Source of the DNA: JACRDV01 sp024860865 [NCBI: Methanobacteriota archaeon] | GTDB lineage: Archaea > JACRDV01 | Direction of reading: 5' to 3' | DNA length: 17,562 nucleotides | Assembly (NCBI GenBank): GCA_024860865.1 | Contig: JACRDV010000124.1 | Coordinates: 1 to 17,562 of the forward strand | Shown: in pieces, positions 12,637 to 17,562 of the stretch | Layout of the letters: each line of letters starts with the position of its first letter | How positions within the stretch are numbered: position 1 is the stretch's first letter | The notes under the pieces: model-generated | What the model saw: the letters and a program-made list of their open reading frames with translations, nothing else | Databases searched by the model: none | Told to the model about the DNA's origin: nothing | Made by a program: the position numbers and the translations under genes

Positions 12637-12645
12637 CCTTTTTTA
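12637..12645 (+). terminator. T-rich stop between convergent genes
   Basis: Only 7 bp separate the DUF655 stop and the end of the opposing tubulin-like gene. The run CCTTTTTTAC just after the DUF655 stop codon is a plausible archaeal oligo-T termination signal for the plus-strand operon. Confidence 0.35.
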
Positions 12646-13770
12646 CCCTGATGGGATAAAGCGCATACGGCTTTCATATCTTTCAAATGCATCTTTTAGA
12701 CTTTGAAACCTCGCTATATCGCCTCTATCGTAGGTATAGCAGAGAATTACTGATGTAGATTTGGTATCAGTTATATTTACACCATAATGGATTTCTTTCA
12801 TTTGAGTTCCTGCGCAGATCTTTTCCTCAAGTTCAGCATGGTCTATCTTTTCTGCGATTTTTTTAGTTGTTTTCAAAATGCAAAGTGCTTTCATTGGTAT
12901 TTTTCCTTTTACCCCTCTGATTGATGATCTACTGATTGCCTTTTCGATTAACTGATTTATGTTGATTTCCTCTTGACTAAAGAGTGTTGCGGTTTCTTGT
13001 GTTGTTCGAGATACTGAAGTCACTCCTATATAACTTCCATAAACACTGCCTAGGTTTAGGGCAGTTAGAAAATCCTTAGCATCAATCACTTTGTATAAAT
13101 CACCGTGCATTTTTTCCTCTAGGAGCACTCCGAACATTATATCCTTTAAAGATTCAGCGATAACTTGATTAAAATCTGGGAAAAGATTGTATAATGTCCT
13201 TGAAGTTTTTGCTTTGGTGGTGAGCAAGTCATTATCTACCGTAATCAACCCGTCGCAAAGTCTGTGCTTAAAAACGTTCTGCAACCACCACCATGCATTT
13301 CTAAAGGGTAAATCGCCCTCAACAGTTGCAGGTAAAACACAAATTACTACTGTAGGTATTTTAAGTTCATTGCGAAGCGCATCTAGTATAGTTAAAGAGA
13401 CTCCACAGCCTGTGCCTCCACCAGCACCTAAAATCATCATTGCAAATGGCACAGGATTTTTGGATAAAACCTCTCTCTCCATCCAATCCAAAAAGGACTG
13501 CGTATGCTCATGAGCCACTTCATTAGCATCATATGGATTTTTGCCAAATCCTGCAGCAACATAATGTTCAAATCCCTTTTGATATGGCATAAAACCTCTT
13601 TGTTTTGATATTCCAAGCCAAAAATCTCTGTTGATATGCTTTAGCTTTAGTAGGTCTTTAATGGTAGAATTGAGGGTAACTGGATAAGCTAGGCTAAAGA
13701 TCTTTTTTTCCGAAAAGACATCATCGGCAAGCGTGCCACCACACTGGCCTACACCTACAAATAAATCTAT
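12643..13770 (-). CDS. Divergent FtsZ/tubulin-family GTPase, non-canonical start
   Basis: Reading frame of about 375 codons. The N-terminal nucleotide-binding loop is DLFVGVGQCGGTLADD. The tubulin signature is GAGGGTGCG, within FAMMILGAGGGTGCGVSL. NDLL matches the N-x-D region, and VIDAKDF corresponds to the T7 catalytic loop (NxDFxD in FtsZ). Beyond these motifs it is far from canonical FtsZ or CetZ. The frame runs back to TGA at 13810-13812 but has no ATG, GTG or TTG before the internal ATG at 13590, which would lose the first nucleotide-binding loop. ATA at 13768-13770 follows GAAGGG by 6 nt and gives a proper family N-terminus, so it is likely the altered or unusual start. Last gene of the minus-strand cluster. 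Confidence 0.78.
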   Translation of the reverse strand: MDLFVGVGQCGGTLADDVFSEKKIFSLAYPVTLNSTIKDLLKLKHINRDFWLGISKQRGFMPYQKGFEHYVAAGFGKNPYDANEVAHEHTQSFLDWMEREVLSKNPVPFAMMILGAGGGTGCGVSLTILDALRNELKIPTVVICVLPATVEGDLPFRNAWWWLQNVFKHRLCDGLITVDNDLLTTKAKTSRTLYNLFPDFNQVIAESLKDIMFGVLLEEKMHGDLYKVIDAKDFLTALNLGSVYGSYIGVTSVSRTTQETATLFSQEEININQLIEKAISRSSIRGVKGKIPMKALCILKTTKKIAEKIDHAELEEKICAGTQMKEIHYGVNITDTKSTSVILCYTYDRGDIARFQSLKDAFERYESRMRFIPSG

Positions 13771-13854
13771 AGATATCCCTTCTCTGATTATTTCGGTATC
13801 AGCCCAAATTCAGATTATCTTTAAAAGTGTTATTAATATTATGTATACCAAGGT

Positions 13855-13866
13855 AATATAAAAATA
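13855..13866 (-). promoter_or_regulatory. TATA box upstream of the tubulin-like gene
   Basis: The minus strand reads TATTTTTATATT. A start about 26 nt downstream (near 13833) would give a leader of roughly 60 nt before the proposed ATA start. The gene may therefore be transcribed separately as well as from the upstream genes. Confidence 0.4.
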
Positions 13867-13896
13867 ACCCTCGTAAAAAGTGGCGTACTTAGAATT

Positions 13897-14535
13897 TTAG
13901 TCATCAATATCGAGCGCTGATGGCATTTTTATTTCTGAGCTTTTTTTTATTTCAAATATCATATCGCGCTCATCAATGAACTCAATTATTGTTTGAATAT
14001 GGAGAGTTTTGGAACCCTTGGGGGGAACAAGTACAATTTTTAAGGATTTTGTTTCTCTCGGTTTAAGCTCAGGGATGGTCTCATCAATTTTCTTGATTTC
14101 TATTTCTTCTTCAGCCATCAGTCGGGCTGAAATATTTTTAACTGGAAAATAAGAGTTATTCATAATACGAATTGTCAAATATCCCTCCTTATCTGCACGG
14201 CGAAAAGAGGGAAAAATATCAATTTTTAATTCAGGTTTCGTTATAAGCTGTATTAACAGCTTGTCTATTTCTTCTAAACATTCCTTTTTTAATTTTAATG
14301 GAATAAAAGTTCCGAATGGCCAACTTATATCAAAGTCAAGTAGTGAAGCTTCATCATTTTTCTTTTCTATTTTTATTTTCCATGTTTCTTCCACATCATC
14401 TTTTTTTCTGAAGAGAACTATGTGATGTGGATAAATCTCTTCCTTGATAGCGTATTCTCTAAAATAAACCTTTAAATTTTTAAAAGTGCTATCGACATCA
14501 CGGGATGTCTCCCTTGTTAAGTGGAGTTTTGGCAA
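13897..14535 (-). CDS. Cytosolic beta-rich protein, unknown family
   Basis: Protein of 212 aa from TTG at 14535 with GGTG 5 nt upstream on the minus strand. No signal peptide or membrane segment. The first 110 residues mix strands and helices, including WPFGTFIPLKL and a helix KKECLEEIDKLLIQLI. The last 100 residues read as an Ig-like sandwich of the NEW3/CARDB kind: GYLTIRIMNNSYFPVKNISA, then IPELKPRETKSLKIVLVPPKG and a closing strand. I do not recognise the full-length family. It lies between the two membrane proteins and the tubulin-like gene on one strand, so it may link them; that is inference from context. Confidence 0.65.
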   Translation of the reverse strand: MPKLHLTRETSRDVDSTFKNLKVYFREYAIKEEIYPHHIVLFRKKDDVEETWKIKIEKKNDEASLLDFDISWPFGTFIPLKLKKECLEEIDKLLIQLITKPELKIDIFPSFRRADKEGYLTIRIMNNSYFPVKNISARLMAEEEIEIKKIDETIPELKPRETKSLKIVLVPPKGSKTLHIQTIIEFIDERDMIFEIKKSSEIKMPSALDIDD

Positions 14536-14643
14536 TTTTTCACCAATTGTTAGAATGCTTTCTTGATTAAACCGCTCACTTTAGGTAATAAAAAGTTGTC
14601 TGATTATTTCTTTTCCTTAATCATGGAAAATGAGGGATTCTTT

Positions 14644-15582
14644 TCACTCCTCGAAAATCTCTTCTGTTTCTATTCTTTCTCTTATTCGTTTTCTAATGCG
14701 AATCATTCTATAGCTAAACCCACCTGAGCCCCCTAAAACTACTATAAGACCTCCAATAAAGGAATAATAAAGCTTGTTAGCTCTTCTTTGCTTTTGTTGG
14801 GCATCTGTGAGTGCTTTCAGTGCCTTCTCTTTTCCTCCTGCATCACCGCTTTGTTCATAGGAGATTACAGAGTCCCGTAGGTCATTTACTGCATTAGAAA
14901 AATAACTTCTTGAAAAAATAAAAATGGTGCTTTCTCCCTTTATTTTTGAATCTAGGCCCTTATCAAAGCTGTTAATTGCAGCATTTCTTATTCTGTTATT
15001 AGCACTTAGGTAAAATGAAAGCGCATTTCTGACATAATCAATTGTCAAAGGATCTTTTGTGCGGTTACATACTTCAGCGGCATCTGAATAAAAACGAATT
15101 TTATCAGGATAGGCTGGGTAATTGTTAGCCTCATTAATTGACAGTTCAATGAACTTTAATGAAAGGCTAGCAACTAAAGATTCAGCATTAGATCGTATTT
15201 GGTGTTTTAAACTGATGTTTCCATATTTTACTATCTTTTCATAGCTTTTTATACTCGAGTGTAAATTTTTTTTCGTCTCTTCACATCTTTTTGATTGCGC
15301 GCTCTCAACTGCAGCTTCCGATTGGTTCAAGAACAATAAAGTTATTTCAATAAATCCCCCAAGTTTGTTGGCTTCACTAGTGAGACCGCGCGCATTGAGA
15401 CCTTTTTCTTCGTTAACCAGTGAGGCTAAATATCCAGATATGGCATGAACTTCTTCAGAAGATATTTTAGAGCGCCAATTATTCACTCTGTTTTCTTGGT
15501 TGATAACATCATACGCTGCTCCAAATGGTGCATTCGAAATTAAGAATAATAATAAAACCAGTAAAATGGCAAATTTTTTCAC
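14644..15582 (-). CDS. Secreted helical protein with C-terminal membrane anchor
   Basis: Protein of 312 aa from GTG at 15582, behind GAGGGG and 1 bp after the upstream stop; a TTG at 15612 is possible but would extend the signal peptide with basic residues. Signal peptide about 1-22 (MKKFAILLVLLLFLISNAPF). The exported part is almost wholly helical with few aromatic clusters and contains N-glycosylation sequons (NQS, NIS, NRT). A transmembrane helix at about 271-292 (FIGGLIVVLGGSGGFSY) is followed by a basic cytosolic tail RIRKRIRERIETEEIFEE. By eye the last 130 residues align with the end of the neighbouring 653-residue protein. Function unknown; topology is outside-in with the tail in the cytosol. 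Confidence 0.72.
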   Translation of the reverse strand: MKKFAILLVLLLFLISNAPFGAAYDVINQENRVNNWRSKISSEEVHAISGYLASLVNEEKGLNARGLTSEANKLGGFIEITLLFLNQSEAAVESAQSKRCEETKKNLHSSIKSYEKIVKYGNISLKHQIRSNAESLVASLSLKFIELSINEANNYPAYPDKIRFYSDAAEVCNRTKDPLTIDYVRNALSFYLSANNRIRNAAINSFDKGLDSKIKGESTIFIFSRSYFSNAVNDLRDSVISYEQSGDAGGKEKALKALTDAQQKQRRANKLYYSFIGGLIVVLGGSGGFSYRMIRIRKRIRERIETEEIFEE

Positions 15583-15583
15583 T

Positions 15584-17562
15584 TTATTTCCCCTCAAATA
15601 TCTCCTCTTCAATTTTGCGCTTTTTAATTTCCTTCTTAATCTCTATCTTCCTTCTAGCAATCCACATTGCGACAGCTAAGGAAGCAGCACTAGTTGAGGA
15701 AAAGAACCCTGTTAATTTGTATGTTGCTTTTTTCTTTGCATTTGAAGCTAGCTTCAATTTTTCATTAATTTCGGTAGCCTTAGAATCACCTAAGTAAACA
15801 TACGCATTGTGGGCATCGTTGTAGCAATTTACTGCCTGAGTATAGACTTCCCTTTCATCAAAGAAACCCTTTTCCTGTTTCATGAGCTGATCTCCCTTTA
15901 CAGCCAAAAAGTCTGCTTTAGCAGTGTAGTTGAGTATATCATAGGTATACTTCACATATAGACCGCGGGAATAATCCATAGCCTCTGGATTTTCAGCAAT
16001 CCTATAAGCCTGAAAGGCTAAAGCAAAAAATTTTTTCTTTTCTTGGAGAGTTTGCGTTTTATCAGTGGCATCCTTAAAGAAATCACCGTAATTTTGTGCA
16101 ATTTTTTTCTGTAAGTAAGGAACAACAGTGTTGTAAACTTGAGATCTAAATTCTTTCTCTTCGGTAGAATAAATTTCCATACTTTTGGTGTGTTTATAAC
16201 CGTTCATCAAAGTTTCAAAATTATCTTCGTAACTTCCAGCCGCTATGCCTTCGTTTAGTTTATTTATGCTTCTAAAGGTGTCTAAAGTTGTTGTAGCAAG
16301 CATTGATATAACAACTGAGTGTGCAGTTTCAAGTTTTTTGTTAAAGAAATTCACAGCGAAAGCTTTAGCGTTATTCAATTCTGATGGTGCTGAGATTTCC
16401 TTTAGGCCATTTATAGCTCCGACAAATTCTTTGTCTACAAGATTAAATCGAACTTTAGCAGTCTTGGGCGTTATATATTTGGGGGATATTCCAACTCGCC
16501 AAACATATTCGCCCCAAACTGCTTTATAAGGATCAACATCTGGCTTTAAACTGATGTTACTGCTGGAGGATGGCATTATCCTGGAAATCGATGTGGGATT
16601 TGCTTTGAGCCAACCTCGCACTAACTTCTCATCAAGTTCTTTAGGCCTTTCTATGGATTCAACATCTATTTTCACATCTGATAACGGTGAATATCCACCG
16701 CTCTCTTTTATTTTAATCGAACGAAGACTTTGATTCATACCAAAATCGATATTATCGCTTGAAATTTCCATAATAGGAAATGGGATGTTAAAGCTTAAAG
16801 AAACATTAAAATTTTTAAGTTGTTCGCCAGTTTCAGAAGTTGGTCTAAAAATTAAAATTCCAGAATATTTACCAGGGGGTGTATCGAGCGTTGGTTTAAC
16901 CTTAACTTTAAGAGAACTAGAGCTACCCCCACTAATTTTCCAAGGACTTGGCTCAATCGAAACAAAATTTTTTAGGCTTTCTGGAATATCTGTACCGATA
17001 TCTATTGAATAGCCACCAGTTATTTCATCAGCATATACTAAATCTGTTTTATTCTCGGTGCACCTTAAATTCCCAAAATTGAGCGAGCTTCGATTAAAAT
17101 AAAGTCTTGGTTGAGGCCATTTCAAAATTAGCGTAAAGCTCAAGGAACCATTTTTTCCTAACGGTGTAGAAGTTGCTTTAAGGGTTGCAGAAAACTCACC
17201 CTGTGTGAATCTTTTTGGTAGGTTTAATTTAATAGTATTGCTACTGCTATTGCGTCTCGCTAGATTGGAAATAGTAGGTGCAGAAAGAGAAGCATAGCTC
17301 GAAGCATTGCGTAATTCAAAAGTAACTTCAGTTGCATTAAGCTTTCCTTCATTCGCTACCGTAAAATCAATTACTCTTTCAATTGGATTAATAACGGCCT
17401 CCGGCATTATAATAATAGGACTACTAATACCAGTTATCTTGAGTTTTGGTATTGCTTTTGTTATAGTGATGGTTTTGTTAGCGCTTCGTCCACTACCTAA
17501 AGTAATGTTAGCTGCTTGAGCCTCAACATAGATTTGTAGCGTCATGTTAGCCGAAAATTTAC
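15584..17562 (-). CDS. Large surface protein with Ig-like repeats and membrane anchor (5' end outside window)
   Basis: The frame is open to the window edge (residues KFSAN precede the first visible ATG at 17545), so the start lies beyond. The visible 650-odd residues begin with several beta-sandwich segments, each carrying a motif such as IDFTVANEGKLNATEVTFEL or LKVKVKPTLDTPPGKYSG, typical of NEW3/COG1470-like surface domains. They carry many N-x-S/T sequons. From about residue 390 it becomes helical, then a membrane segment near 608-629 and a strongly basic tail (RRKIEIKKEIKKRKIEEEIF). The C-terminal helical part, anchor and tail resemble those of the next gene, which starts 1 bp after this stop. 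Likely an extracellular receptor or adhesion-type protein. Confidence 0.75.
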   Translation of the reverse strand, partial: KFSANMTLQIYVEAQAANITLGSGRSANKTITITKAIPKLKITGISSPIIIMPEAVINPIERVIDFTVANEGKLNATEVTFELRNASSYASLSAPTISNLARRNSSSNTIKLNLPKRFTQGEFSATLKATSTPLGKNGSLSFTLILKWPQPRLYFNRSSLNFGNLRCTENKTDLVYADEITGGYSIDIGTDIPESLKNFVSIEPSPWKISGGSSSSLKVKVKPTLDTPPGKYSGILIFRPTSETGEQLKNFNVSLSFNIPFPIMEISSDNIDFGMNQSLRSIKIKESGGYSPLSDVKIDVESIERPKELDEKLVRGWLKANPTSISRIMPSSSSNISLKPDVDPYKAVWGEYVWRVGISPKYITPKTAKVRFNLVDKEFVGAINGLKEISAPSELNNAKAFAVNFFNKKLETAHSVVISMLATTTLDTFRSINKLNEGIAAGSYEDNFETLMNGYKHTKSMEIYSTEEKEFRSQVYNTVVPYLQKKIAQNYGDFFKDATDKTQTLQEKKKFFALAFQAYRIAENPEAMDYSRGLYVKYTYDILNYTAKADFLAVKGDQLMKQEKGFFDEREVYTQAVNCYNDAHNAYVYLGDSKATEINEKLKLASNAKKKATYKLTGFFSSTSAASLAVAMWIARRKIEIKKEIKKRKIEEEIFEGK

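Follow-up and report, generated by a model that had tools for sequence, protein, structure and literature searches.

A divergent tubulin-superfamily GTPase appears to be conserved with two surface stalk proteins in three archaeal phyla

The window analysed here is the entire contig C77 (JACRDV010000124.1; 17,562 nucleotides) of genome G000, from the archaeon JACRDV01 sp024860865 (1.54 Mb in 160 contigs, 92% complete), the sole representative of its phylum in the genome set that was compared. One end of the window encodes a tubulin-superfamily GTPase (GTPase-A) together with two predicted surface proteins, one bearing immunoglobulin (Ig)-like domains on a helical stalk and the other helical. 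GTPase-A and the Ig-stalk protein, joined by the helical-stalk protein in nearly all genomes examined, form a conserved set that spans three archaeal phyla. We propose, with a probability of roughly one half, that a membrane-associated tubulin-type polymer holds the tails of the two surface stalk proteins, linking the cytoskeleton to the surface. The set may thus represent an undescribed internal skeleton that grips the cell surface through the membrane.

An earlier reading made from the sequence alone (the sequence-only reading) had described a divergent tubulin-like GTPase, and both motifs and profiles bear this out. The window protein carries T1, T4 and T7-position motifs (Table 1) and matches PF00091 at 52.6 bits (cut-off 33), which places it in the Tubulin/FtsZ superfamily. 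In an alignment of GTPase-A orthologues, the GGGTG of the T4 loop and the T7-position aspartates D243 and D246 were invariant in all 14 rows, the latter aligning with the VVDSSE stretch of CetZ1. In tubulin-type polymers the T7 aspartates act across subunits, in hydrolysis. GTPase-A retains its loops for nucleotide binding as well as the two aspartates at the T7 position. Among solved structures, CetZ1 (4b46) was the best match to a profile built from 14 orthologues (E 2.1e-22). A Foldseek search with the predicted model was likewise led by CetZ structures (3zid, 4b46 and 4b45; template-modelling scores of ~0.5, root-mean-square deviation 16-18), and its best 50 fold matches were all superfamily members or complexes containing such members. 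Within that model the nucleotide domain alone is confident and the C-terminal half is not (mean predicted local distance difference test score 58), so we make no claim on polymer contacts.

GTPase-A appears to be a family within the tubulin superfamily that is distinct from FtsZ and CetZ. The window protein scored 38.7 bits with the FtsZ equivalog TIGR00065, far below the cut-off of 295.2, and gave no match to CetZ_C (PF21011), the FtsZ C-terminal domain or Tubulin_2 (PF13809) at E <= 1; as a control, the Hydrothermarchaeota CetZ of G001 scored 213.9 bits with CetZ_C. In a quick tree of 107 superfamily rows (6 of 113 sequences, being short or unrelated frames, were left out beforehand; FtsZ and CetZ rows were labelled by motif), the 18 GTPase-A rows grouped together, outside both the FtsZ and the CetZ clade. 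Support by the Shimodaira-Hasegawa-like approximate likelihood ratio test was 81, and 96 once a diverged paralogue from family f80, of another phylum, was included; the exact place of the window GTPase is unsure because of its long branch. The nearest relatives found are Hydrothermarchaeota proteins at 29-34% identity, with blastp E values down to 4e-53. In G023, for example, the best match has 34% identity (E 2.5e-44) and the second-best an E value of 1.2e-10.

The gene neighbourhood of GTPase-A was compared across 14 Hydrothermarchaeota loci (the gene is partial in L090), which include Hydrothermarchaeum profundi JdFR-18 and Pyrohabitans JdFR-16 and JdFR-17. In 14/14, GTPase-A is followed by a protein with two N-terminal transmembrane segments and, by eye, long helices or coiled coil, and then by a second tubulin-like gene, GTPase-B (detected by profile in L089, with one stop inside the match). 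GTPase-A and GTPase-B are distantly alike (hhalign 96.5% over one 127-column stretch). The helical and Ig-like anchored proteins are encoded divergently upstream in the 11 loci whose contig extends there, the Ig-like gene of L086 being cut short. A further anchored protein lies on the opposite strand after the Ig gene in eight of the ten loci with sequence there; it was not found in G023, nor in the 0.6 kb visible in G062. Its member from L084, the Hydrothermarchaeum JdFR-18 locus, has PQQ and WD40 beta-propeller matches, and where Ig genes are unlinked on separate contigs the propeller gene adjoins in G073 and not in G077. Longer antisense frames can mask genes in open reading frame tables; two genes hidden in this way, for GTPase-B in L089 and for the helical protein in L091, were recovered separately. 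A pattern scan of genome contigs returned 13 loci, one of them a 37-residue match, all in archaeal metagenome-assembled genomes titled Hydrothermarchaeota, Hydrothermarchaeum, Pyrohabitans, 'Euryarchaeota archaeon' or 'archaeon'; the scan sets no bound on distribution, as its patterns would miss f80-type sequences. The conserved neighbourhood expected by the sequence-only reading is thus present insofar as GTPase and Ig genes adjoin in 11 Hydrothermarchaeota loci at 29-34% GTPase identity, but the order differs, since in the window all the genes share one strand in the order Ig, helical, 212-residue protein, GTPase. Its four-gene set is also smaller than the system of the relatives, in which a second GTPase, the two-transmembrane protein and the anchored beta-propeller protein are found as well.

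Across 345 archaeal genomes, GTPase-A was detected at E < 1e-90 in 14, to which G077 adds a fragment at a contig end (E 6.7e-21), and the Ig protein at E < 1e-100 in 15. With the G077 fragment counted, both genes mark one and the same group of 15, made up of 11 Hydrothermarchaeota, the window genome and three members of family f80 (whose phylum is a different one; 29 genomes in the set). Weak Ig matches (E 1.3e-8 to 5.5e-7) without strong GTPase-A occurred in four genomes. The 19 Hydrothermarchaeota divide into 11 with both genes and 8 with neither, and because the latter include several well-completed genomes, such as G001 (98%) and G078 (100%), the GTPase-A/Ig set is dispensable. GTPase-B was present at E < 1e-160 in every one of the 15 genomes except that of the window. 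The two-transmembrane protein turned up in 12 of these genomes, the f80 matches reaching just 1.3e-43 and 1.6e-18, and was not found in G000, G077 or G271; outside the 15 it was found in G175 alone (E 5.9e-5). When 20 chosen genomes were searched for the helical protein, it was detected at E < 1e-30 in 10 of the 13 with GTPase-A and in none of the 7 others.

The profiles drew rows from most of the Hydrothermarchaeota and from the window. Family f80 gave no rows to the GTPase-A, GTPase-B, Ig and two-transmembrane profiles, and a second, diverged f80 locus gave two rows to the helical profile. Because relatives share history, the counts are not independent trials, and their independent part is the occurrence in three phyla. 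In the f80 genomes G167, G271 and G337, GTPase-A, GTPase-B, Ig and helical genes lie on four different contigs each; in G337 all four are inside contigs, and the several kilobases retrieved on each flank contain no partner. G349 (f80) likewise has GTPase-A, GTPase-B and a helical protein. In G359 (family f131, in the phylum of f80) the genes are spread over three contigs, which carry GTPase-A, the helical protein and an Ig fragment with a propeller-type neighbour. The expectation that the four window proteins would occur together consequently stood for the GTPase and the Ig protein, and also for the helical protein when judged by its architecture and paralogy, including an unlinked occurrence in a third phylum; it failed for the 212-residue protein. 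The second diverged locus occurs in two f80 genomes (L190, G337:C80; L191, G167:C41) and encodes a GTPase-A-like protein, a second, short tubulin-like protein, helical, Ig and propeller-type proteins, and a protein of 985-988 residues whose L190 copy (988) is assigned to Tubulin_2 by Pfam. Surface proteins with Asp/Asn-rich repeats were seen there by eye.

The Ig-like protein of the window is clearly related to its Hydrothermarchaeota counterparts (hhalign 97.7%, E 2.4e-12, with a profile built without the window protein). Its AlphaFold2 model shows tandem beta-sandwich domains followed by long helices, and the nearest solved structures found by Foldseek include what we take to be Ig/ASH-type domains of ciliary proteins and cadherins. 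Its N-terminus is unseen because the gene runs into the contig end. The Ig-family stalk shares homology with the helical family (hhalign 96.7%, E 4.2e-10). Direct profile homology between the window helical protein and the Hydrothermarchaeota helical family was rejected, the hhalign result being at shuffle level, and the link was then sought through paralogy. Compared with the Ig stalk, transmembrane segment and tail, the window helical protein gave a z-score of 8.1 (0/300 shuffles), partly inflated because the transmembrane segment and charged tail contribute. The ectodomain alone against the Ig stalk gave 3.4 (1/300), and the transmembrane segment plus tail 6.9 (0/300). The same helical/Ig comparison inside two Hydrothermarchaeota gave 3.9 and 5.7, and control comparisons of the ectodomain with the two-transmembrane protein gave -0.2 to 1.4 (n=3). 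These results show paralogy between the helical and Ig-like surface proteins across stalk, anchor and tail. The window helical protein is presumably the counterpart of the ~320-residue Hydrothermarchaeota helical protein, a family membership that we infer, as the profile of that family misses it.

Both window tails carry the sequence EEIFE close to their ends. Together they score 35, more than either reaches with any of the 154 other C-termini predicted in the loci compared. In 15 pairs from Hydrothermarchaeota, f80 and G359, the motif LGxE[LI] is present in 15/15 helical proteins and G[DEN][VIL][VIL] in 14/15 Ig-protein tails. Scores between helical and Ig tails of the same lineage average 29.8 at the second f80 locus, and the scores as a whole indicate a lineage-specific common tail that is clear in the window and at that locus and modest elsewhere. 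Over the last 12 columns, cross-phylum identity of the two proteins is 0.36 and 0.40, compared to 0.22 and 0.27 overall.

Taken together, these observations are consistent with a model in which GTPase-A would assemble, in a GTP-dependent manner, into filaments along the inner membrane face, and the tails of both stalk proteins (those ending in EEIFE in the window) would dock either on the filament itself or on an adaptor of it. The ectodomains of the Ig and helical proteins would bind the envelope or a partner surface, and in most relatives the second tubulin-like GTPase and the two-transmembrane protein could complete or tether the filament. A common cytosolic partner is hinted at most strongly by the shared EEIFE ending, and GTPase-A would be the simplest candidate, as neither GTPase-B nor the two-transmembrane protein was found in G000. 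Such a system likely serves cell shape, envelope organisation or surface attachment, not division. More tentatively, the arrangement might be integrin-like, with a membrane-apposed polymer of the paired GTPases gripping the two stalk proteins and the beta-propeller receptor by their tails and passing force or signal, tails and GTPase having co-diverged by lineage.

Several observations weigh against a polymer that holds these tails. Both window anchors are weakly hydrophobic (Table 1), so that calling them leans largely on alignment to the clear transmembrane segments of relatives; of the two tailed anchors claimed by the sequence-only reading, the EEIFE-type tails stand and the anchors are weak by hydropathy. 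The hhalign comparison of the window helical protein with the Hydrothermarchaeota helical family gave 0.5%, within the range of 60 shuffles. A wider helical-family profile found the Ig-protein stalk alone in G000 (E 0.011) and not the window helical protein, which gave a weak match (E 5e-3) in a small open reading frame set; the helical profile missed G061 (62% complete) and G073 (94%) as well, apart from the Ig stalk. The tail score of 35 was reached by 96/5000 same-letter shuffles. For the system 1 pairs, tail scores within lineages average 17.3 (range 7-32), with means of 11.7-15.0 between lineages and one between-lineage pair at 33, and the tail is not the best-conserved part of the helical or the Ig protein, other stretches exceeding it. 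Searches of G000 for GTPase-B and the two-transmembrane protein gave no match at E <= 1e-6 and 1e-4; both may lie in the missing part of this 92% complete assembly, whose contig ends in the Ig gene. No strong GTPase-B was found in G359 (74% complete), the genes are unlinked in f80, G359 and G077, and independent finds are few (f80 and G359) because most co-occurring genomes supplied profile rows. Finally, no ATG, GTG or TTG precedes GVGQCGG in the GTPase frame: the ATG-started frame (to 13590) is too short, and the open frame, beginning after a TGA, reaches 13809. An ATA codon at 13768-13770 lies about where relatives start, a few bases past GAAGGG, and may be a genuine non-standard start or an assembly matter.

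The same module could work without a load-bearing filament if GTPase-A served as a nucleotide switch, or as a scaffold, in organising or recycling the surface complex, with the tails bound by the two-transmembrane protein or another adaptor and not by GTPase-A. The position of the two-transmembrane protein between GTPase-A and GTPase-B in all 14 Hydrothermarchaeota loci fits this, as does the fact that the unconfident C-terminal half of the model leaves polymer contacts unsupported. We nevertheless regard a switch or scaffold as rather doubtful, given the invariant T7-position aspartates, whose role lies across subunits, and a window genome in which EEIFE tails and GTPase are present and the two-transmembrane protein was not found. 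It is unlikely that the set is a divergent functional relative of the FtsZl1-type systems, for which Makarova and Koonin (2010) proposed membrane remodelling (PMC2875224), and which would make it a remodelling or vesicle apparatus. The diverged f80 locus, with its GTPase-A-like and Ig genes beside the 988-residue Tubulin_2-matching protein, points that way; the window GTPase, however, does not match Tubulin_2, its length leaves no room for a coiled-coil extension at the C-terminus, and no vWA match was found in the four window proteins or in four L084 partners that were scanned.

Kinship with the FtsZ superfamily, and a tethered polymer suited to constriction, would also be compatible with a second division ring whose surface proteins serve septum adhesion. 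We consider this very unlikely: G000 already contains two further tubulin-superfamily genes, both with FtsZ-type motifs and placed among the FtsZ rows of the tree, and GTPase-A and Ig are absent from the well-completed G001 and G078. That a tubulin-like gene merely abuts surface-protein genes by chance might be argued from the single genome of the window phylum, the unconserved 212-residue gene and the gene order that differs from relatives. Chance is scarcely credible and already contradicted by the GTPase/Ig neighbours in 11 Hydrothermarchaeota loci and their unlinked co-occurrence elsewhere. A polymer that holds the tails of both stalk proteins is the reading that we prefer.

The features of the window are collected in Table 1. 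The four same-strand open frames of the sequence-only reading were all confirmed. The Ig-like gene and the helical open frame, described as essentially overlapping, do so by 29 bp, or are 1 bp apart if the helical gene starts at an internal GTG. The remaining distances, given as 90-130 bp, measure 108 bp from the helical to the 212-residue gene and, from there to the GTPase, 87 bp if its open frame is taken in full or 126 bp if it is counted from codon 14. At third codon positions the G+C of the four genes is 0.29-0.31, similar to the 0.25-0.32 of the adjoining genes, which we take to encode SRP54, FtsY and eIF6, so there is no sign of a foreign block. A defence or phage origin was dropped after none of the four proteins matched PADLOC or PHROGs at E <= 0.01; a scan of viral contigs gave a single distant stretch (29% identity across query residues 17-112).

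Table 1. Features of the window, with positions in the 17,562-nucleotide stretch
Feature	Position	Strand	Basis or remark
Tubulin-superfamily GTPase (GTPase-A)	12643..13809	-	Open frame of 388 codons without a canonical start upstream of GVGQCGG
T1 motif GVGQCGG, open-frame residues 19-25	13735..13755	-	Sequence
T4 glycine loop AGGGTGCG, residues 129-136	13402..13425	-	Sequence
T7-position motif VIDAKD, residues 241-246	13072..13089	-	Alignment
212-residue protein, no predicted anchor, C-terminal half weakly Ig-repeat-like	13897..14535	-	Lineage-specific
Helical surface protein: N-terminal hydrophobic segment, ectodomain, weak C-terminal transmembrane segment, short basic tail	14644..15612	-	
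C-terminal anchor of helical protein, residues 281-299 (predicted)	14716..14772	-	Best 19-residue hydropathy mean 1.46
Presumed cytosolic tail of helical protein, end RIETEEIFEE	14647..14706	-	Sequence
Ig-like surface protein, 658 codons	15584..17560	-	N-terminus cut by contig end
Ig-like beta-sandwich domains, residues ~40-374	16439..17443	-	AlphaFold2 model, Foldseek
Helical stalk of Ig-like protein, residues ~377-615	15716..16432	-	Related to separate helical family
C-terminal anchor of Ig-like protein, residues 616-634 (predicted)	15659..15715	-	Best 19-residue hydropathy mean 1.32
Presumed cytosolic tail of Ig-like protein, end KIEEEIFEGK	15587..15655	-	Sequence

The 212-residue protein had been read as a cytosolic beta-sandwich linker belonging to the set. 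No orthologue was found among the 345 genomes, which rules out a conserved linker. The beta-sandwich call is weakly backed, by a faint similarity of the C-terminal half to parts of large proteins from five other genomes. At a comparable place in the diverged f80 locus lies a 240-residue protein, in which no resemblance to the 212-residue protein was seen by eye.

GTPase-A resembles CetZ in being archaeal and additional to FtsZ, and CetZ proteins are its best solved relatives by profile and fold. It differs in having no CetZ_C match and in lying outside the CetZ clade. A further difference concerns gene context, for which we draw on a study that is presumably by Brown and Duggin. The cetZ neighbourhoods described there hold pili, cofactor and sugar genes (PMC9856176), whereas GTPase-A is found with surface proteins. 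CetZ has been listed in Hydrothermarchaeota (PMC9871819), and archaeal membrane systems with Ig-like proteins have been described (PMC5898192). FtsZ1 and FtsZ2 with SepF offer another parallel, a tubulin-superfamily GTPase being proposed in a membrane-proximal role; GTPase-A differs in its TIGR00065 score and its place outside the FtsZ clade. SepF is a peripheral membrane anchor of archaeal FtsZ1 and FtsZ2, whereas the proposed partners of GTPase-A are transmembrane surface proteins. FtsZl1/Tubulin_2 systems of archaea and bacteria share the clustering of a tubulin-like gene with secreted and membrane proteins, and the FtsZl1 loci of Makarova and Koonin contain vWA and membrane proteins (PMC2875224). 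No Tubulin_2, vWA, P-loop GTPase or OmpA match was found in the four window proteins or in four L084 partner proteins (the L084 Ig protein lay outside that scan), and the window GTPase, at 388 residues, does not have the coiled-coil and helical C-terminal extension. The GTPase-A and GTPase-B genes, two apart in most relatives, recall the tubulin pairs of eukaryotes, Asgard archaea and Prosthecobacter, but they are distantly alike, B was not found in the window genome, and any heterodimer is hypothetical. In the literature searched, which omits most subscription journals, no published description of the GTPase/Ig/helical set was found among the papers listed.

Other tubulin-like loci were seen in the course of this comparison. 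L230:7554-11680 (G001:C37) has three tubulin-like genes, two with CetZ_C, and between the second and third a 277-residue protein with an N-terminal hydrophobic segment and a C-terminal transmembrane segment; in L093, two tubulin-like genes flank a similar protein. L206 (G350:C184) combines three divergent tubulin-like genes, one of which prefers Tubulin_2 over Tubulin, with small anchored proteins. A GTPase-A orthologue in L205:663-2816 has a C-terminal extension of ~330 residues with lysine-rich repeated units by eye. Family f38 (L109, L115-L118; genomes of ~3-3.6 Mb) is a separate tubulin-like family, weakly joined to GTPase-B in the tree, with the motif GIGECGSNIVGS in 4/5 members by scan.

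To our knowledge, the prokaryotic filaments of tubulin type described so far are attached to the membrane by peripheral adaptors or by single ones. If the proposed model is true, GTPase-A and its partners would provide a direct prokaryotic link from cytoskeleton to exterior, in which a tubulin relative is joined to transmembrane surface stalk proteins. Many archaeal genes of the tubulin superfamily are unassigned, and for one of them the set offers testable partners; it also points to uncultured lineages in which to seek machinery for shape or attachment.

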